NCBI RefSeq assembly: GCF_029690045.1
Contig: NZ_CP121464.1
Location: 3,906,001 to 3,970,000 of the forward strand
DNA from: Janthinobacterium rivuli
Lineage (GTDB): Bacteria > Pseudomonadota > Gammaproteobacteria > Burkholderiales > Burkholderiaceae_D
DNA length: 64,000 bases
Reading direction: 5' to 3'
Below the pieces are notes generated by a model. It made no database searches. It saw only the letters and a program-made list of their open reading frames with translations, and was not told where the DNA came from. Position 1 is the stretch's first letter; every line of letters begins with the position of its first letter. The translations under genes were made by a program, and so were the position numbers. Positions 1,761-57,261 of this stretch are shown here, one piece after another.

Positions 1761-1984
1761 ACTTCTATCACAATCCGCATGATGAACTATACAATTTTAA
1801 CGCGAGCGAATCCCTCAATGGATGGGTGCCCGGCGAATTCCCGCTATCGGTGCCGCATCATGCGATCAGTACGAGTGTGGAAAGTCTGCTTAGATTACAT
1901 CAAAAAAATAAAAATCACAAGTCAAATCTCGACAGCGAGCGATATTGCTACTAAAATAATCTCCTCACGAGAATGGAGACGCCA

Positions 1985-2929
1985 ATGTCTGATACTTCGC
2001 CTCAACCGGTACAAGATAAAAATAAAACTGTGTGTATAGAACACGAAAAACTTAAGCTACATTTTGCCTATCTAGTGGTTATTCTAGTTTTTTCGATGAT
2101 CTTACTGGCGACAGGCCAGTTTACACCTAAGGAAAAGTTCACGGAATACCTGTCCAATGCCGCTACTCTCGTCTCAGTGGTGCTTGGCCTAGTAGCTATT
2201 TTTTATTCCTTTATTTCAAATGATGGCCTATCAAAAAGTTTAGGATCAATAAACAATGTATCTGAACAAATCGCAAAAACAAGAGAAGAAATAAGTATTT
2301 ATGTGGATCGCACAAAGGAAACAGGAGATCTTGCGGAATCTGGCGCAAAATTATTAAGCTCTGCCACACTCGAAATAAAACACAATCTTAGTGAGTTATC
2401 TTCAGCAATGGAAGCGATAAGAGTTCAAACCTCAGATTTCGGCACTATAATTAGCGAAATACCTTCCAAATTTGAGAAACTTGAAATCACCTTCCAAGAT
2501 GCCGCGAAAGGATTTGGAGTAAAAGAAAAGAGCAGGGACGAGCATACTCCATCTGCAGAACTCGCACCGGCTCTTGTCCAGCAAGTTCTTGAAACATCCT
2601 CATTAGCCTGCAATCTTGTCATCATCGCATGCGTGTTCGCATTTCAGTCCAAGAAACAATTGGACCTTGAGAATTTTAGCAAAATAATGGAAACAAAATT
2701 AGACGATCTGATGTCCGGCTACATTATTGCACTGAATGCATTTGGAGCAATTTCGATTAGATATATAAATTCTCGCAATTTCGAAATAGTTGAAGCAAAC
2801 AAAAACATTGAAAAAATTGCCGAGAAGTATTATATTGAATACCTAAATTCATCTTTTAACGATGATAAAGCGGAGAAGGAAATATGGAAAAAAAGGCTAG
2901 ATGCTGTAAAGGATTTATTTTTTCCTTGA
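1985..2929 (+). CDS. two-helix membrane protein with coiled-coil domain (candidate prophage moron)
   Basis: The start is chosen at 1985 because GGAG (1975-1978) sits six bases upstream; an ATG at 1973 would overlap that site. The product of about 314 residues has two hydrophobic helices near the N-terminus (about 27-46 and 59-78) and then a long polar region rich in Glu, Lys and Ser that looks coiled-coil. Two weaker hydrophobic patches follow, around residues 210 and 240, and the tail is charged. Base composition is strikingly AT-rich beside its neighbours and it faces the other way from the phage module, as expected of laterally acquired cargo. I do not recognise the family. Two membrane anchors plus a cytosolic coiled coil resemble phage-exclusion or SLATT-like effectors only in general shape. 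Confidence 0.75.
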   Translation: MSDTSPQPVQDKNKTVCIEHEKLKLHFAYLVVILVFSMILLATGQFTPKEKFTEYLSNAATLVSVVLGLVAIFYSFISNDGLSKSLGSINNVSEQIAKTREEISIYVDRTKETGDLAESGAKLLSSATLEIKHNLSELSSAMEAIRVQTSDFGTIISEIPSKFEKLEITFQDAAKGFGVKEKSRDEHTPSAELAPALVQQVLETSSLACNLVIIACVFAFQSKKQLDLENFSKIMETKLDDLMSGYIIALNAFGAISIRYINSRNFEIVEANKNIEKIAEKYYIEYLNSSFNDDKAEKEIWKKRLDAVKDLFFP

Positions 2930-3106
2930 CCATGTAATTAGAAATTTAAGCTCTGAAATTAAATCTTAATTTAGAAGCAGCGCGAGCATTGTGTGTCTGA
3001 ACAAAGTCATCTAATTCACTAACCATATCCAAAATCTTTTCGCGCTCGAATCCCCCCGCTTCAACGGCCGCTTTGCCGGTGCCATCGCAAACAGCGCAAA
3101 CCTTCA

Positions 3107-4017
3107 GTGACGGTTTAAAAACTTCGTAGCAACTTTTGTGTCAAAGCGTCTTTGACGTTTTGGAGTAGCTGTCATGTGGACACAAGAGAATCGTAGCAAG
3201 CATCAACAGGTACGGACACCGCTCAAACGTGGTTATCCTACGGATGTGAAAGATGAAGAGTGGCACCTGATCGCACCGCTGCTGCCGAAGCAAGCGAAGA
3301 CGGGAAGACCGCGCAAAACGGATTTGCGCGCAGTGATCAATGCGCTGCGATACATGGTGCGGTCCGGATGCGAGTGGCGCATGCTGCCCAATGATTTTCC
3401 GCCCTATCAGACGGTTTATTACTGGTTCCGGCGACTGATGCGGCGCATGCTGTTTCGCACCATTCATGACTTGGCGCTGATGCTTGATCGCTTGTCCAAT
3501 GAGCGGGAGGTGCTGCCGAGTGCCGGCATTGTCGATAGCCAGAGCGTGAAAGCGCCAGGGGCACGAACGAGAGGCTATGACGCCAACAAGAAAGTCAGTG
3601 GGCGCAAACGCCATATTGCGGTCGACACGGATGGTCGCTTGCTGGCGATGAACCTGACACCAGCCGATATCGCCGACTCCACTGGTGCTCAGATGGTACT
3701 CGACGGCTTGGTCAAACGCTGGCCGTGGGTGAAGCATCTGTTTGGGGATGCGGCATACGACCGCAGACAACTGATGGACAAGGCAGAGTTTCTCGACTTT
3801 ACGGTGGAGGTCGTGCGGCGCCTGCAGCGGCAGCAAGGTTTCGCTGTTCAGCCAAGGCGCTGGGTGGTCGAGCGAACGTTTGCATGGCTGATGCGTTACC
3901 GACGCTTGGTGCGCGACTATGAACAGCGCATTGACGTGTCGGAAAACATGATTTACTTGGCCATGGGATCGCTGCTACTGCATCGACTAAATTTCCGCTA
4001 AGTTATTAAACCGTCTC
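3107..4017 (+). mobile_element. IS5-family insertion sequence, complete
   Basis: The element is 911 bases. The left end reads GTGACGGTTTAAAAACTT and the right end, inverted, GAGACGGTTTAATAACTT. It is flanked by a 3-base duplication TCA (3104-3106 and 4018-4020). The bounds are confirmed independently, because deleting the element and one TCA restores the frame of the interrupted gene. One intact transposase gene fills it. Three-base TNA duplications are known for some IS5-family groups. Confidence 0.92.
3174..4001 (+). CDS. IS5-family DDE transposase
   Basis: A single 275-residue frame preceded by GGAG eight bases before the ATG. It carries an N-terminal DUF4096-like part (DEEWHLIAPLLP, SGCEWRMLPNDFPPYQTVYYWF). 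The DDE catalytic residues appear in IVDSQSVK (first Asp), FGDAAYD (second Asp) and VVERTFAWLMRYRRL (Glu, the Y-(2)-R-(3)-E-(6)-K-like signature). No frameshift or internal stop is seen, so the element may still be active. It reads opposite to the phage gene it interrupts. Confidence 0.95.
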   Translation: MWTQENRSKHQQVRTPLKRGYPTDVKDEEWHLIAPLLPKQAKTGRPRKTDLRAVINALRYMVRSGCEWRMLPNDFPPYQTVYYWFRRLMRRMLFRTIHDLALMLDRLSNEREVLPSAGIVDSQSVKAPGARTRGYDANKKVSGRKRHIAVDTDGRLLAMNLTPADIADSTGAQMVLDGLVKRWPWVKHLFGDAAYDRRQLMDKAEFLDFTVEVVRRLQRQQGFAVQPRRWVVERTFAWLMRYRRLVRDYEQRIDVSENMIYLAMGSLLLHRLNFR

Positions 4018-22844: not shown

Positions 22845-23270
22845 AGTAGGAAGTGTGAGGACTGGAAAACTCAATTCTACCAGCCTGCGGGGAATGCCAT
22901 GCCGCTAATGCCCCACCACGGCCCGATATTCGCCCACCCATCTCGCCATTTTAAAATCCCGTGTATTTTTTCATATAAAAAATACCAGAGATGAGTTGCA
23001 ATCATACAATACAAGAAATATTGCTCCACAGAATAGATTTAAAAAAACATTTTGCTTATTAAATAGCTATATACTTGGATCAAAGCGCGCCACACAATAC
23101 TGATGTCAAACCGATTTGGACTGCGCCGAGAGCACGTCACAAATGCCCAGGGCTAGGCGTCGTTGCCGAAGACAGTACGCAAGTACAGTACGGTAAAGGC
23201 AACGCAACAACGCCATGGGCTTTTGCGACGCGCTCGTAAAAAATATCGAGTCATCCTGGAGAAGCTATAC
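22845..23270. other. AT-rich divergent gap with a palindrome and a repeat-like block
   Basis: The 426 bases between aroC and the response-regulator EAL gene hold an AT-rich stretch (about 22,960-23,070). In it GTATTTTTT (22963-22971) and AAAAAATAC (22977-22985) form a 9-base stem. Further on lies a block resembling sequence near 56.5 kb (listed separately). The downstream frame is open to 23163 but the ribosome binding site supports 23271. Confidence 0.5.
23146..23205. repeat. copy of a dispersed CCGAAGACAGTACG repeat block
   Basis: The block contains CAGGGCTAGGCG, TCGT, CCGAAGACAGTACG and GTACA in that order. The region at 56515-56555 carries CAGGGCAAGGCG, CGTCGT, CCGAAGACAGTACG and GTACA in the same order and spacing within a few bases. 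This suggests two copies of one intergenic repeat. Confidence 0.5.
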
Positions 23271-50351: not shown

Positions 50352-51394
50352 TGGCAGTCACAGCACTCGCCGCCCTGCACCGCAAGCTGTTTGACGAAAC
50401 GGATGGCAGCAAGTTCGCCCGGCTGAAAGAGCGGCTGATCAAAAAGCATGCCGCGGACGAGCGGCTGGCCGTGCTCGAGATCCTGATGGCGTATGCGCGC
50501 GATGGGCAACTGCTGCACTGGCGCAGTTTTTTGATGAGCGATATCGTGCATCTGGTGGAAGGCAGTCAACATGCGGCCTTTTTCACCTGGGCACTGGAGC
50601 AGCCCGCACTGGCGTACTGTGCCGTAGATGGCTTGCTGAAAAGTACAGGCGTGGACGCATATGCGCCCCTGGTGGCGCTGGCGGCGTCGAGCGCCACCAG
50701 CCTGGAAGTGCGCGCCAAGGCGATCAAGAGCCTGGCCGTGTTCAGCCGCCAGCCGTTTGACCAGGGCTTGCCTGCCGATCCCGGCCACTGGAAGGCAGAG
50801 CAGCTGCGACTCAGCGCCGTGCTGGTCTGGCAAGCGGATGGCTACCCGGACGGCGCAGGCTACAAGGCGCCCGCCACGCATTACTCGCTGACCCAGCCGC
50901 TGTCGCGCCTGGAAAAGGCAGCCACCTTCCTGGAACGACAACTGGCGCTGCGGCGCCAGCGCGAACAGGACCTGGCGCAACCGTCGAACTGGCTGACGCT
51001 CGCCAGCGCCGAGGACATGGCCGCCATCGACGCGCACTGGGTATTGCCGGAGATATACCGCCGCTTCCTGGAATGGTATTCGCCGCTGCGCGTGCATGTC
51101 GACGGCAAGCGCTTTCCCCAGGGCCTGCACCTGTACGGCGCGGCCGAGCTGGTGAAGGCCCAGCACGGCTACTCCGTCCATCCCGAGCGCCATCACGCAA
51201 TCGCGGGCTGGCCGCCGAAGCTGGTGGTGATTGCCGATGCGGGCGGCGACCCGTACTGTGTGCATCTGGAAGAAAGAAGCATCGACGGCGACTTGCCCGT
51301 GTACCGCGCCAGCCATGGCACGGGCGAATGGCGCTTTGAACAGCATACGGACGATTTCATCGACTTCCTGCAAGAAATCGCGCTGGCGGTCTAG
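50351..51394 (+). CDS. SUKH (SMI1/KNR4)-like protein coupled to thyA
   Basis: 347 residues. The N-terminal ~190 residues are helical and HEAT-like (DERLAVLEILMAYARDGQLLHW, VRAKAIKSLAVFSR). The C-terminal half looks like a SUKH domain: VLPEIYRRFLEWYSPLRV, LYGAAELVKAQHGYSVHPE, WPPKLVVIADAGGDPYCVHLE, FDEF-like end TDDFIDFLQEIA. SUKH proteins are frequent immunity proteins to nuclease toxins, but many have housekeeping roles. It is translated directly from the thyA stop (TGATG). No toxin gene is beside it. Its stop overlaps the convergent TonB receptor gene. Confidence 0.65.
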   Translation: MAVTALAALHRKLFDETDGSKFARLKERLIKKHAADERLAVLEILMAYARDGQLLHWRSFLMSDIVHLVEGSQHAAFFTWALEQPALAYCAVDGLLKSTGVDAYAPLVALAASSATSLEVRAKAIKSLAVFSRQPFDQGLPADPGHWKAEQLRLSAVLVWQADGYPDGAGYKAPATHYSLTQPLSRLEKAATFLERQLALRRQREQDLAQPSNWLTLASAEDMAAIDAHWVLPEIYRRFLEWYSPLRVHVDGKRFPQGLHLYGAAELVKAQHGYSVHPERHHAIAGWPPKLVVIADAGGDPYCVHLEERSIDGDLPVYRASHGTGEWRFEQHTDDFIDFLQEIALAV

Positions 51395-53658
51395 CCTGCT
51401 TCTCCCGGCCCGCCCGGACCGGGGCCGCCTGGTCCGCGTCCGCCCGGCGGACCGAAACGCGGTTCGCGCTCGCCCTCTTTCGCCGCCGACGTGGTGCCGC
51501 CCAGGCGGTACGACAGCCCCACATAAATCATCCGTCCATCGAAGCGCCGCGTGCTCGTCTCGCGCAGCGAGGCGCTGTTGATGACGGTTTCCATCTTGTT
51601 GCTGCTGAACACATCGGTCACATTCATGACCAGGCTCAGCTGCTGCGTCACCGTGTGGCGCCAGCTGACATTCAGGGTATTGTTCGGCGAGCGGTAGCCC
51701 TGCCCCGACAGCATCTTGCCCTGCATTTGCAGGGCAAGCTGCAGCTGGTTGGCGGTGTTGAACTGGTAATTGAGGCGCGCGCGGCCGCTCAGGGCATTGG
51801 CCGTGCGCGTGCTGCGGTTGCCCAGGTCGTCCGAGCTCGTTTGCTGGCTGCGCGCCAGGTTGCCGCTCGTGTTCAAGGTCAACGATGGCGTCAGCTTGCC
51901 GCTGACGCTGAATTCCAGGCCGCTAGAATGGCTGCCTTCGCCGTTTTCCCGCGTGGTCAAGAGCACATTGTCGCTGATAAAGTAGCGGTAATCGACGATG
52001 GCGTCCGTGTCGCGCCGGTGGTAGGCGCGCAAGCTGCTTTCCAGGCCCGCGATTTTCGTTTCATAGCCGATCTCGAACGAATCCGTCTGCGTCGGTTTCA
52101 GCTTCGGGTTGCCGGCCGACACATTGAACTCGTCGCGGTAGACCACGTACGGGTTCAGGTCGCCCGCATTCGGGCGGCGGATGCGGTGCGCATAGCTGAA
52201 GCGCACATTGCTCTCGTCGCTGACCTTGTAGGTGGCGAACAGGCTGGGGATGTAATTGACGTAGTTGTTGCTGGCCTCGACGCTGCTGGTGATCTGGCGC
52301 ACGTTCAAGTCCGTGTATTCGGCGCGCAGGCCGGCCAGCGCGCCCCAGCGTTCGCTCAGGCGCATCTGGTAGGAGCCGTACAGCGCGATGGTGCGCTCGT
52401 CGAGCTCGAAACGGTTGCTGCGCATGGGGTTGACGGTTTCCGCCAGGCTGGCCGGGTTGATGTCCGTATATAAAGTGTCAAAACTGCTCTTGTTGTCAGC
52501 CACCTTGTAGCCCAGCTTGGCCGTGCCGCCCGCCAGCGGACGCTCGTAGTCGCCGCTGAAGTCGACGATGCGGTTGCCCGTCTCGCTATGCTGGCGCGCG
52601 CGGCTGTCGAAAGCGTTGACGGGCGTCACCGCGTAGGTATTGGCGTAATCGCTGTCGCTCTCGTTGGTCGACGAGGACACGCGCAAGTCGATTTTGAGGG
52701 TTTCGCCTGGCAATTCTCCCTTGTGGTCGTAGCGCGCGCCCCAGCTGTAGTTGCGGCTGTCGCCGTTGCGCACGGTGCTGCGCACATAGTCGCCGATGGT
52801 GCTGCCCGTGCTGTCTCCATTGATGTAGCGGTCGAGCGAGCGCTGGTCGTTGCTGCGCCCGTTATATGACACGCTGGCGGCCAGCGTGTCATTGGCGTTC
52901 AGATTGTAATTGACGGTGCCGTGCAAGCCCAGCGAGTCATTCAAGCCATTGTTGCTGGATTGCTGGCTGCTGGGGGCGAAAGCGCCCGTGTCGCGTTCCA
53001 GGCGTTCGCGGCTGACCTCGCCCACGGAATTGCGGCCGTCATGGCGCACATTGATGCCGCCCTGGTAGCCCCACGGACCTTCGTTGTAGGTGCCGGACAC
53101 GGCACTGTTGTAGCGCCCCGCGATACCGGCATTCGCGTTGACGGTGGCAAAGCCGCCCGGCTTGCGGTTGCGCCGCATCACCAGGTTCAGGATGGGGCCG
53201 CCACCGGCCTCGTTGCCGAACTGGGCGCCGGGATTGTTGATCACTTCCACGGATTCGATATCGTCGGCCGCCATGGCATTCAGGGTGGCGCCGCGCGAAT
53301 CGCCCTGCAGCATGGCCGACGGCTTGCCATCGATCAATATCTGCACATTGCTGCTGCCGCGCAAGGAGACGGAACCATCGGGATCGACGGCCACCGACGG
53401 CACATTGTTCAAGGCATCGGCCGCCGTGCCGTTGCTGCTGCCCACGTCGGACTTGACGTCGTAGACTTGCCGGTCGATACGGCCCGTGGGGCGCTCGGCC
53501 GTCACGCTGACGGAAGGCGTAGACTCGGCGGCGGGCGTTTTGGCCGGTGCGGGCTTGACGACGGTGTCGCCGCTGGTAGTCGTGGTTTGGGCCTGGACAG
53601 CGGCGCCGGAGACGAGCAGGCTGCCGCCCGCCAGACAGTGAAAGAGGATTTTATGCAT
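51391..53658 (-). CDS. TonB-dependent outer-membrane receptor with Gly/Pro-rich tail
   Basis: About 755 residues from ATG 53658. A signal peptide (cleavage after AVQA) is followed by a linker and the plug domain (GTAADALNNVPSVAVDPDGSVSLRGSSNVQILIDGKP, PGAQFGNEAGGGPILNL). The beta-barrel ends in RMIYVGLSYRL. Instead of stopping at a terminal aromatic it continues with about 35 residues ending RGPGGPGPGGPGEAG. The CarboxypepD-like plug and the barrel resemble outer-membrane receptors for siderophores or sugars of the FecA/OMR group. The substrate is unknown. Confidence 0.88.
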   Translation of the reverse strand: MHKILFHCLAGGSLLVSGAAVQAQTTTTSGDTVVKPAPAKTPAAESTPSVSVTAERPTGRIDRQVYDVKSDVGSSNGTAADALNNVPSVAVDPDGSVSLRGSSNVQILIDGKPSAMLQGDSRGATLNAMAADDIESVEVINNPGAQFGNEAGGGPILNLVMRRNRKPGGFATVNANAGIAGRYNSAVSGTYNEGPWGYQGGINVRHDGRNSVGEVSRERLERDTGAFAPSSQQSSNNGLNDSLGLHGTVNYNLNANDTLAASVSYNGRSNDQRSLDRYINGDSTGSTIGDYVRSTVRNGDSRNYSWGARYDHKGELPGETLKIDLRVSSSTNESDSDYANTYAVTPVNAFDSRARQHSETGNRIVDFSGDYERPLAGGTAKLGYKVADNKSSFDTLYTDINPASLAETVNPMRSNRFELDERTIALYGSYQMRLSERWGALAGLRAEYTDLNVRQITSSVEASNNYVNYIPSLFATYKVSDESNVRFSYAHRIRRPNAGDLNPYVVYRDEFNVSAGNPKLKPTQTDSFEIGYETKIAGLESSLRAYHRRDTDAIVDYRYFISDNVLLTTRENGEGSHSSGLEFSVSGKLTPSLTLNTSGNLARSQQTSSDDLGNRSTRTANALSGRARLNYQFNTANQLQLALQMQGKMLSGQGYRSPNNTLNVSWRHTVTQQLSLVMNVTDVFSSNKMETVINSASLRETSTRRFDGRMIYVGLSYRLGGTTSAAKEGEREPRFGPPGGRGPGGPGPGGPGEAG

Positions 53659-53855
53659 TTGCTTAAAAAATAATGGAGACGCTACGGATGAAGCGCTACG
53701 CCGCAGCGTGAGGGCACATGTGTGGGCACATTCAAAGCATGCCACGATTGCAAGGAGCAAAGCAAATGCGAACCATTGTTATTTACTTCAATTTACAAAT
53801 CTCTCGCACTTGTGGTCATACAGCCTCATCCGATGAACTTTGCGCTACCGTTACG

Positions 53856-55205
53856 CTACCTGAGCAAGCCATTGCCGCGCGCCAATTTCAGCCAGCCCGG
53901 ATACTCCGTCATCAACAAATCATACAGTTCCGCATCGCTGTGCTCATCGGGCGAGCTGACGGAAAAGTAATTGGCATTGTCGACCAGGCGGCCCTGCAAT
54001 TCGTCGAGCTTTTCCAGGAAAGGGAAATCGGAATCGGCAAAGGCGGAAAGAAACTTGCTTTTCGACTTGCGTCCCTTGCCGATGCCCATGAATTGCCAGA
54101 AGATGGGCTCATTGCTGGCCCAGCGCAATTGTTTCTCCGTCGTCGCCTGATCGCTGGTGCCGCCATCCGTGACGAACATGACGTACACGGGCAACTCGGC
54201 CGCGACGGCGCGCGTGCGCTCGCCGCCGGCAGCGTCGGGGAAGTAAAACGCGCGTATCGCCTGCATGGCGGCGCCGTAGCGCGTGTCGCCTTCCAGCGGA
54301 TGGCGCTGTATCGCCTGGCCCACGTAGGTATTGCAATTGCTCAATGCCATCGGCGCCGGATGGTGGACGTTTTTGCCGAAGAGGAAAACGTCGATCTCGC
54401 CATCGTCGTCGAACTTGCAGCCCAGGGCCAGGATGCGTTCGGCAAAGCGCTGCACCAGCCCCTCTTTATACAGCCGCCCCATCGAGCCGGAAATGTCGAG
54501 GCACAGACACACCTTGGCGCGGTGGTCCGACAGTCCCACTTTTTGCAGCGACACGCCGGCCTGCTTGACCAGGCTGACCAGTTGCGGCGCTTCCCGTTCG
54601 ACCCGTTTTTCCAGGTTGATCTTCGCCTGCATGACGGCCGACGCCGCTGACGCGGCGGGAGCGGCAGAGGTGGCAGGAGAGGCCTGGTCGACTTCGCCGC
54701 CGAAGTGGCGCACCAGCGCATCGAGTCCCCCATTGAAACCTTGTCCCACGGCCATGCAGCGCCAGCCGCCATCCTTGCGGTAGAGTTCAAGCAGCATGAC
54801 GGCTTTTTCCTGTGCGAAATCCGAGCCGGCAAACGCAAAGCGTGCCAGCTCGCGTCCTCCCGCCTGCAGCCGCACATGGCCAGCTTGCAGCTGCGACATC
54901 ACGCCGCCGCCATCGATGGACGCCGTCACGACGAGGCGGTCTATGCTGGCCGGCAAGCGCGCCAGTTGCAAGGCAAACTCGGTCATGTCGCCAGCGCTGC
55001 CCGCGCGCGCTTCCACGCCGCCGCACGGCGTGCGCGGCTGGTTGAAAAAGGTCATGTAGCGCTCGTCGGACAGTTTGCCGCTGGCATCGAGGCCGAAGCA
55101 GGCCACGTCGAGCGCCAGGCCCTGCGCGGCCACGCCGACCTGCAATACGCCATCGGGAACGAGATTGGCCAGCGGCAAGCGCTGTCCCTTGGACAAGGTT
55201 TCCAT
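53856..55205 (-). CDS. TerD-vWA fusion (TerF-like)
   Basis: 449 residues with a strong GGAGG start signal. Residues 1-170 form a TerD domain (GLALDVACFGLDASGKLSDERYMTFFNQ, FAQEKAVMLLELYRKDGGWR, GQGFNGGLDAL). After a linker of Ala/Ser, a von Willebrand A domain covers about 220-449 with a full MIDAS: LDISGSMG, GDTRYGAAM and TDGGTSD. TerF is the known stand-alone vWA partner of Ter systems. Here it is fused to a TerD module very similar to that of the upstream gene. Such proteins are proposed to act in a membrane-linked metal-stress complex; that role is inferred. Confidence 0.9.
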   Translation of the reverse strand: METLSKGQRLPLANLVPDGVLQVGVAAQGLALDVACFGLDASGKLSDERYMTFFNQPRTPCGGVEARAGSAGDMTEFALQLARLPASIDRLVVTASIDGGGVMSQLQAGHVRLQAGGRELARFAFAGSDFAQEKAVMLLELYRKDGGWRCMAVGQGFNGGLDALVRHFGGEVDQASPATSAAPAASAASAVMQAKINLEKRVEREAPQLVSLVKQAGVSLQKVGLSDHRAKVCLCLDISGSMGRLYKEGLVQRFAERILALGCKFDDDGEIDVFLFGKNVHHPAPMALSNCNTYVGQAIQRHPLEGDTRYGAAMQAIRAFYFPDAAGGERTRAVAAELPVYVMFVTDGGTSDQATTEKQLRWASNEPIFWQFMGIGKGRKSKSKFLSAFADSDFPFLEKLDELQGRLVDNANYFSVSSPDEHSDAELYDLLMTEYPGWLKLARGNGLLR

Positions 55206-55214
55206 CAGTGCCTC

Positions 55215-56474
55215 CTAGGCGATATAGCGGCGTGGATTGTCCGCATTGCAATCATCTTCATCTTCCTTGTCCTCGCCCTTGAAAACGACGGGACCGTTGA
55301 AGGCCAGTTGCAGGTTCTCGCCCTGCCAGCTCAGCCATGGCGTCGCTTCGCTGCCCGGCTCCGACGTCTTGCCCGACGGTTCCAGAATGATGCTGTCGGG
55401 CGTGATGCGCGCCATGCCGATCACATAGGTGTAGACGGTATCGTCGTCGGCCGCCTTGGACAAGCGAAAATCGAACGCGCACTCGACGATCTGCTCGCCA
55501 TATTGCATGACCATCTTCGGCCGCATGGACGCGACCGAGACGGCGCCGTTGGCCACCGCCGAATACACGCTGAAGACGAGGCCCACCGTGCCGCCGTAAT
55601 GCTGCGCCAGCGCGGGATTGACTTCCACCGTTTCCGTAGCCGGCTCCTTGCCGGATGCGCCCGCCACGTCGCCCAGGTGGCGCACGAAGGGCATGGCGCC
55701 AAAATTGCCGGGCGTATCGGGCGCCTGGATGAAGCGCATCTGGCCGTTCGGCAAGAGGATGCCGACCCGCAAATCAAGGTCGTCGTTATCGTCGTCGCCA
55801 TCGCCGTTATCGACCCAGCTGGCCTTGACGGTGAGCTTGCCCGGCGCACCCGCGCCCTTTTCCAGCGACACCTTGTGCGTCTGGCCCGCCTTGGTCAGCG
55901 AAATTTTCGACAGGGAAATCTTGGGCGGCGGCGCCGGTTCAGGTTCAGCAACCGCCTGCGCCACTACACCGCCAAAATGGGCGACCAGGGCATCGAGGCC
56001 GCCATTGAAACCCTGGCCCACGGCCATGAAGCGCCAGCTCCCATCCTTGCGGTAGAACTCGCCCAGCATGACGGCTTTTTCTTGCGCAAAATCAGCGCCC
56101 GCATATGTGTAGCGGGCCAGCTCGCGCCCGCCGTCGAGCAGGCGCAGATGGCCGCTGCCCAGCTGCGCCATGGTGGCGTCGCCATCGATGGCGGCCGTGA
56201 CGACCAGGCGCTCGATGGACGCCGGCAAACGGTCCAGCTGGTAGCTGAAGCCGGCCGCGTCGCCGGACGGCGCCGCGGTTTCCACGCCGCCACACGGCGT
56301 GCGCGGCTGGTTAAAGAAAGTCATGTAGCGGTCGTCGGACAGCTTGCCGGCGGCATCGAGGCCGAAACAGGCAAAATCGAGCGCCACGCCGGCGCTGGCG
56401 AGGCCCAGTTGCACGACATTGCCCGTGACGAGGCCGGACAGCGCCAGGCGCTGCCCCTTGATCAGGTTTTCCAT
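55215..56474 (-). CDS. TerD domain with TerA-like C-terminal domain
   Basis: 419 residues. Residues 1-165 are a TerD module nearly parallel to the one at 53856 (GQRLALSGLVTG, ALDFACFGLDAAGKLSDDRYMTFFNQP, FAQEKAVMLGEFYRKDGSWRFMAVGQGFNGGLDAL). A short Pro-rich hinge leads to a second, acidic domain starting KISLSKISLTKAG, with VDNGDGDDDNDDLDLRVGILLPNG. This is like TerA and may bind calcium through the aspartates. It lies nine bases from the vWA fusion gene, so the two are co-transcribed. A duplication of the N-terminal module followed by different C-termini is the simplest reading. Confidence 0.85.
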   Translation of the reverse strand: MENLIKGQRLALSGLVTGNVVQLGLASAGVALDFACFGLDAAGKLSDDRYMTFFNQPRTPCGGVETAAPSGDAAGFSYQLDRLPASIERLVVTAAIDGDATMAQLGSGHLRLLDGGRELARYTYAGADFAQEKAVMLGEFYRKDGSWRFMAVGQGFNGGLDALVAHFGGVVAQAVAEPEPAPPPKISLSKISLTKAGQTHKVSLEKGAGAPGKLTVKASWVDNGDGDDDNDDLDLRVGILLPNGQMRFIQAPDTPGNFGAMPFVRHLGDVAGASGKEPATETVEVNPALAQHYGGTVGLVFSVYSAVANGAVSVASMRPKMVMQYGEQIVECAFDFRLSKAADDDTVYTYVIGMARITPDSIILEPSGKTSEPGSEATPWLSWQGENLQLAFNGPVVFKGEDKEDEDDCNADNPRRYIA

Positions 56475-56504
56475 GGGACTATTTATTCAGATGTGAGAGC
56501 TTCG

Positions 56505-56685
56505 GACAACGGCTCAGGGCAAGGCGCGTCGTCCGAAGACAGTACGAATGTACATATGCGTTGAAACGCCTGACAAAACCGTAGCGAGCGGCAACGAGTT
56601 GTGGCCGAGACGCGGAGCTGTGCTTTAGCACAGTGAGCATCGGAGGCCGCAAATCGCGACGCGCAGTAGGTTTTGACAGGTGTTT
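56505..56685. repeat. palindromic intergenic repeat inside the Ter cluster
   Basis: Between terD and the TerA-like gene lies a structured block. ACGCCTGACAAAACC (56566-56580) and GGTTTTGACAGGTGT (56669-56683) are inverted copies with one mismatch each side of a smaller hairpin (GCTGTGC/GCACAGT). The left part carries CAGGGCAAGGCG and CCGAAGACAGTACG, also seen at 23146-23205. It has the look of a non-autonomous mobile repeat. It may also separate transcription of terD from the two downstream genes. Confidence 0.6.
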
Positions 56686-57261
56686 TTATGCGTTGATACC
56701 AAAAGAGCGGGCCAGAGGGCCCAGGCCGCCTTTGAAACCCTGGCCGATGGCCTTGAATTTCCATTCGCTGCCGGCACGGTAGATTTCACCGAAGATCATG
56801 GCCGCTTCCGTCGAGCCGTCTTCCGACAGGTCGTAACGGGCGATTTCCGCGCCGTTGTCGCCGTTCAGGCAGCGGATATAGGCCTTGCCGACCATGCCGA
56901 AGTTCTGCTTGCGGTTTTCCGCGTCGTGGATGGTGACGGCCACGGCGATCTTGTCGATATCGGCCGGCACGTTGGCCAGGTCGACGGCAACTTTCTCGTC
57001 GTCGCCATCGCCGCCGCCTGTGGTGTTGTCGCCCGCGTGCACGATAGAGCCGTCAGCCGACTTCAGGTTGTTATAAAAAATGAAATCGGCATCGGAACGG
57101 GCCTTGCCATCCGTTTTCAGCAGGAAGGCGCTGCCGTCCAGGTCGAATGCGGCGCCATCGGTGGCGCGCGGGTCCCAGCCCAGGCCAATCACGATTTTCT
57201 TCAAGCCAGGAGCTTCCTTGCTCAGGTTGACATTGCCGCCTTTTTGCAAACTGATCGCCAT
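56686..57261 (-). CDS. terD: TerD-family tellurium-resistance protein
   Basis: 191 residues, single-domain TerD/TerE type, with AGAGGA before the ATG. The calcium-binding pattern is complete: [23 protein letters not shown], then [21 protein letters not shown] and the closing [17 protein letters not shown]. TerD proteins bind calcium and are part of stress systems that also give tellurite and phage resistance phenotypes. No terB, terC or terZ gene is nearby, so the local system is reduced to three genes. Confidence 0.93.

Follow-up and report, generated by a model that had tools for sequence, protein, structure and literature searches.

Does a compact cluster of three TerD-domain genes on the chromosome of Janthinobacterium rivuli constitute a Ter system in its own right, or does it serve a larger one encoded elsewhere? 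The cluster lies at positions 53856-57261 of the window, i.e., the 64,000-nucleotide stretch analyzed here (contig NZ_CP121464.1, positions 3,906,001 to 3,970,000), and encodes a single-domain TerD and two TerD fusions, one of them TerF and the other a protein for which, together with its relatives, we coined the label TERAL. On balance, we lean towards the view that the trio is a conserved satellite locus, i.e., a trans-acting accessory, of a StiP-type Ter system dispersed over three loci. The observations behind this reading are the gene content of the trio, its conservation and purifying selection, the finding that genomes with TERAL also carry StiP, the separation of TERAL from TerA, and the repeated replacement or homogenisation of N-terminal modules (N-modules) between adjacent fusions; the mechanism and biochemical role proposed for the trio form its conditional part.

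All three open reading frames (ORFs) lie on the minus strand and match the Pfam TerD family, in agreement with the original prediction of an upstream single-domain TerD and two adjacent TerD fusions. The first gene, at 57261-56686, encodes a TerD of 191 aa that matches PF02342 over its full length (E 2e-83; 278.9 bits against a cut-off of 25.3; profile positions 1-187 of 187) and shares 61% of its residues with plasmid TerD and 64% with plasmid TerE. TERAL, the second gene (419 aa; 56474-55215), consists of a TerD module at residues 1 to ~172 (Pfam TerD, 3.3e-35 on residues 3-167), a linker and a C-terminal domain at ~186-419; its C half matched no Pfam or NCBIfam family at E 0.1. The third (449 aa; 55205-53856) was identified as TerF, with a TerD module (3.5e-31) fused to a vWA-TerF-like domain (PF10138, 5.4e-54, over the cut-off). 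The metal-ion-dependent adhesion site (MIDAS) claimed for this vWA domain was borne out, D237-x-S-x-S241, T308 in DTRYG and D347 in TDGG all being present; from the vWA family motif, we take D237/S241, T308 and D347 to be the MIDAS positions. When 26 TerF-type ORFs were scanned with simple patterns, both the DxSxS and the [ITV]TDG motif turned up in 22. Window TerF and its plasmid counterpart share 35% identity across 424 aligned columns. Spacers of 211 bp (terD-TERAL) and 9 bp (TERAL-TerF) separate the genes. As had been stated, no TerB, TerC or TerZ was detected by Pfam search of the cluster proteins, and a cluster of terD, TERAL and TerF only is not a canonical ter operon (terC and terD with terB or terZ/terA in one cluster).

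The description of the system as reduced proved correct for the window only. The genome (6.33 Mb, a single contig) has seven TerD domain sites, distributed over three loci. A fuller operon at C1:2018001-2038000 (L016) encodes DUF475/TerC, TerD, AIM24, ATP-grasp, phosphoribosyltransferase (PRTase), a haloacid dehalogenase (HAD)-type hydrolase (Hydrolase_3, 28.8 bits against a cut-off of 20.9), StiP-PELOTA, C-C lyase and TerA, while another locus (L017) encodes DUF475, TerD, AIM24 and a TerZ-like protein. A search for separate terC and terB genes revealed, besides DUF475/TerC at these two loci, two more genes of the TerC family and two of the TerB family elsewhere. With ATP-grasp, PRTase, HAD, StiP and C-C lyase all present, the genome as a whole holds a StiP-type Ter system, to which the window adds the genome's only PF10138 protein (TerF), the only TERAL C-domain found and one of three TerD/TerE-type single-domain proteins.

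Across 40 genomes of the genus, PF10138 was found in 33, TerD in 39, the TERAL C-domain in 29 and StiP in 38. Comparison of coordinates among the matches listed placed terD, TERAL and TerF in this order within ~3.6 kb in 28 of the 40 (TerD matches as listed, full-length TerD rows included), showing that the paired fusions are conserved in relatives; in one genome (G010) TERAL and TerF are far apart, and in another (G015) terD adjoins TerF without a TERAL match. Among 17 named Janthinobacterium loci with TERAL, which may overlap with the genus sample, the trio is present in 16; the other, CG3 (L055), carries only TERAL. A lysine-decarboxylase/DHFR/hydrolase flank is found on one side of all 16 trio loci, and a TonB-receptor/thyA flank on the other side of 14. 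The ratio of non-synonymous to synonymous substitution rates (dN/dS) in four comparisons was 0-0.09 for TerD, 0.09-0.18 for TERAL and 0.06-0.13 for TerF, reaching 0.22 for the TERAL N-module alone. The trio is therefore under purifying selection and chromosomally fixed at a syntenic site. These data bear on the idea that the window holds a decaying partial copy of a ter operon elsewhere in the genome. A fuller operon does exist, and in one Janthinobacterium metagenome-assembled genome (MAG; L033, 8001-9008) the TERAL match covers only 336 codons, the loss apparently falling in the N-module, with terD and TerF of approximately usual lengths. However, the trio cannot be a copy of the fuller operon because TerF and TERAL are absent from it, and the low dN/dS values and conserved site speak against decay, which we regard as highly improbable.

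The relation of TERAL to StiP was then surveyed in 57 loci with TERAL relatives, 16 of which are the standard Janthinobacterium trio. StiP scored over the cut-off in every one of the 40 genomes searched from the 41 non-standard loci, with partial matches (E ~1e-28) in L045 and L050; the remaining locus, L067, which was left out of the search, itself contains StiP. Within the genus sample, StiP was present in 29/29 TERAL-positive genomes, including all 28 with the trio (Janthinobacterium CG3 is counted both here and among the 40 non-standard genomes). By comparison, StiP was over the cut-off in only 8 of 274 genomes of a class-wide sample (14 at E 0.001). A profile of 18 TERAL C-domains (alignment A3) matched seven of these 274, six of them weakly, and all seven fell within the eight StiP genomes, giving a hypergeometric p of 4e-13, or 1e-11 without the window's own genome (hypergeometric values here ignore kinship). 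In 10 of the 40 non-standard genomes StiP lay inside the stretch fetched around TERAL (up to 8 kb on each side, some ended by contig ends) and in 30 it lay outside, in two of them (L035, L069) farther out on TERAL's contig. In Undibacterium, TERAL and TerF are found within the StiP operon itself.

Two alternatives can be weighed against this distribution. The trio had been proposed to be a distinct minimal Ter form, in which three proteins would give stress protection without TerB, TerC or TerZ. The genes do keep together, the trio being found in 28/29 TERAL genomes and 28/33 TerF genomes of the genus sample. However, each of the 28 trio genomes also holds StiP, which marks the biosynthetic ter operon, the trio lacks TerC, and in the window's own genome DUF475/TerC stands beside TerD at two other loci, one of them the StiP operon with its TerA ortholog. 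A self-sufficient variant thus appears improbable, and the claim was not sustained. Alternatively, the trio might have a separate role, e.g., in Ca2+ or metal homeostasis or in envelope stress, and merely co-occur with StiP-type Ter systems. Consistent with this, it stands apart from the other ter loci, and 9 of the 11 genomes of the genus that lack TERAL keep StiP; TERAL is therefore dispensable for the StiP system. A separate role would not, however, readily account for TERAL never being found without StiP in the 40 other genomes, when StiP is so rare in the class sample, or for the common locus of the two in a quarter of those genomes; we consider it rather unlikely.

The second fusion had been described as carrying a TerA-like acidic domain. 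The TERAL C-terminal region (residues 178-419; 55218-55943, minus strand) contains DNGD, NDDLDLR, H-x-GD and E residues that are invariant in alignment A3, and the acidic motif, a candidate for Ca2+ binding of the TerD type, is conserved there. By hhalign, TERAL_C matched TerA_C at 97.7% over 104 columns (the TerA side built from five sequences) and TerA_C matched TerD at 96.2%, while TERAL_C against TerD directly gave 17.7%; the TERAL C-domain is probably a divergent second TerD-superfamily domain. The possibility that TERAL is canonical TerA was rejected, since its C-domain shares only 49/191 residues (25.7%; score 31) with that of plasmid TerA, as compared with 101/199 (50.8%; score 486.5) for the genome's own TerA at L016. 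On sequence comparison, TERAL is assigned to a protein family distinct from TerA, its C-domain being a distant relative of TerA's; the likeness to TerA holds to that extent, whereas the TerA ortholog sits elsewhere in the genome. Moreover, single clusters of Roseospira (L058), Nioella (L061), Abditibacterium (L045) and a Rhodobacteraceae MAG (L069) contain both TERAL and a TerA-type protein. Several TERAL-family proteins bear the source label "tellurite resistance protein TerA". In Undibacterium (L034, L095), TERAL is placed after the C-C lyase, which is TerA's slot in Massilia operons (L081, L082, L094).

The N-modules of the two window fusions had been called near-identical. In fact, they are 63% identical over 219 aa (BLASTP) and 72.5% over the 172-residue module. 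The shared pattern itself is real and recurs in other lineages, and the TerF N-module is closer to that of its TERAL neighbour than to TerF modules of the other genera compared (at most 66.1%). Modules of 110 residues or fewer were dropped from the trees. In a 31-row tree the modules did not group by C-domain, the starred branches forcing at least eight label changes for TERAL, four for TerF and five for TerA. Approximately unbiased (AU) tests rejected a single clade for each type (TERAL, p 7e-10; TerF, 4e-37; TerA, 1e-16), with groups defined by C-domain and tested after a first tree was seen, and with long branches present. A 40-row tree took in N-modules from 11 of 15 regions fetched around StiP (L087, L091, L092 and L093 were without usable TerA or TerF). 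In it, a starred clade of nine rows united the TERAL modules of Massilia and Janthinobacterium CG3 with TerA modules, and one of seven rows joined the standard Janthinobacterium and Undibacterium TERAL modules to TerF modules; the window TERAL and TerF modules share a starred clade with those of Undibacterium TERAL and TerF and of Massilia TerF. In the same tree, the TERAL and TerF labels were unclustered (79/500 and 205/500 shuffles as low), but the TerA label was clustered, with seven changes against a shuffled mean of 12.4 and none of 500 shuffles as low; N-modules are thus not wholly free of C-domain tracking. In the Rhodobacteraceae MAG L069, the N-modules of TERAL and TerA share 95% identity; at the DNA level, identity is 85-98% as far as the end of the module and 60-77% beyond. 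Among 26 within-genome pairs with different C-domains, eight were more alike than either was to its own type elsewhere, near relatives (two Janthinobacterium rows, two close Massilia) being left out of "elsewhere" and two Janthinobacterium pairs representing one event. These comparisons show that the N-modules of neighbouring fusions have repeatedly been replaced or homogenised.

Several points weigh against the satellite reading. Taken alone, the genus-level co-occurrence of TERAL and StiP is not significant (hypergeometric p 0.07), because StiP is present in 38/40 genomes. Phylogenetically, the genomes with TERAL are clustered (Proteus, Psychrobacter, Massilia), and a relative could enter the survey only if it shared either of two conserved peptides. 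Of the 40 non-standard TERAL genomes, 20 have no TerF, and TERAL and TerF are therefore not obligate partners. Joint action of the three loci is putative, as is any ligand. Finally, the N-module likeness was found in 6/8 adjacent pairs, 1/5 non-adjacent pairs of the same operon (the Undibacterium pair) and 1/13 pairs from different loci. Because the likeness is mostly between adjacent genes, local gene conversion would explain it without functional pairing, and matched N-modules could have arisen neutrally, through tandem gene conversion or through fusion in place, and would then say nothing about joint function. That high DNA identity stops at the module boundary in L069 also fits such an origin. 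The swapped modules are, however, under purifying selection and so must be at least functionally interchangeable. As to the process, the evidence points to gene conversion or fusion acting locally and permitted by the functional interchangeability of the modules. A purely neutral by-product is a serious contender, if one that we hold to be somewhat short of an even prospect; it is compatible with a satellite locus but opposes the adaptor function considered below.

Some further features of the locus and the window were recorded. The terD-TERAL spacer (56475-56685, minus strand) holds a dispersed intergenic repeat, of which a 50-bp partial copy lies at window positions 23139-23187 and other partial copies in several Janthinobacterium loci; the length of this spacer ranges from ~70 to 390 bp across the 16 trio loci. 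The vWA-TerF match is in two pieces in four genus genomes, suggesting a variant of TerF whose vWA domain contains an insertion; this variant is an extra copy in three of them (G009, G023, G033) and the sole TerF form in G015. Directly downstream of TerF, at 51391-53760, lies a gene that we take to encode a TonB-dependent receptor and that is kept there in 14/16 named loci. At 1973-4001, the window has an ORF with a third-position GC content of 0.34 (0.7-0.85 in most other ORFs), followed by an ORF that is presumably an insertion-sequence transposase.

The canonical plasmid ter operon, terZABCDEF, is accompanied on an E. coli IncHI2-type plasmid (L080) by divergent StiP, PRTase and ATP-grasp genes. 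Window TerD and TerF belong to the same families as their plasmid namesakes, and StiP, PRTase, ATP-grasp and TerA are also encoded in the window's genome. Unlike on the plasmid, the system is here divided among three loci, terZ, terB and terC are missing from the window, and TERAL lies beside TerF, which resembles plasmid TerF in domains but not in its location away from the biosynthetic operon. TERAL shares with TerA (385 aa in L080) the two-part architecture of TerD plus C-domain. AIM24, DUF475 and C-C lyase, all encoded in the window's genome, did not appear in the 10.6 kb retrieved from the plasmid. The Ter system described in passages of PMC7824862 likewise has biosynthetic PRTase and HAD, TerD, TerC and TerF vWA components; those passages mention neither a TerD fusion distinct from TerA nor exchanged N-modules. 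Passages of PMC12054061 report TerC-TerD as a minimal functional unit in E. coli and describe terF insertions that affected neither phage inhibition nor oxidative stress nor colicin resistance, and according to passages of PMC8123226, terF of pTE53 is not needed for tellurite resistance. These accounts of terF speak against expecting a strong tellurite phenotype.

How, then, might a satellite locus act? The trio would supply the dispersed system with its only TerF, its only TERAL and one single-domain TerD, while the membrane parts (DUF475/TerC), AIM24, TerA and the biosynthetic enzymes (ATP-grasp, PRTase, HAD, StiP, C-C lyase) would come from the other loci. The TerD N-modules would be interchangeable adaptors, putatively Ca2+-dependent, through which the fusions are recruited to one shared, membrane-associated TerC/TerD assembly, leaving the specific work to the variable C-terminal heads: the MIDAS vWA of TerF may recruit or oligomerise partners, and the TERAL C-domain may sense or relay a signal linked to what the StiP pathway makes. 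This adaptor-and-head mechanism is drawn from the domain families, from the TerC-TerD unit as reported in the passages of PMC12054061 and from the Ter components as described in those of PMC7824862. A bolder version, which we advance tentatively and consider less probable, is that TERAL is an unrecognised TerD-fusion family depending on the StiP pathway as its dedicated sensor or effector, and that Ter fusions form a combinatorial set with stable C-heads, whose N-modules are swapped between neighbours so that the heads dock on the same assembly.

For the Ter family as a whole, the findings expose a labelling problem, in that several TERAL proteins are named TerA although their C-domain differs from that of plasmid TerA. 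The exchange of modules suggests that TerD may be an adaptor and makes this idea testable. TERAL, not seen without StiP, may in turn provide a handle on the product of the biosynthetic half of the system and on what reads that product.
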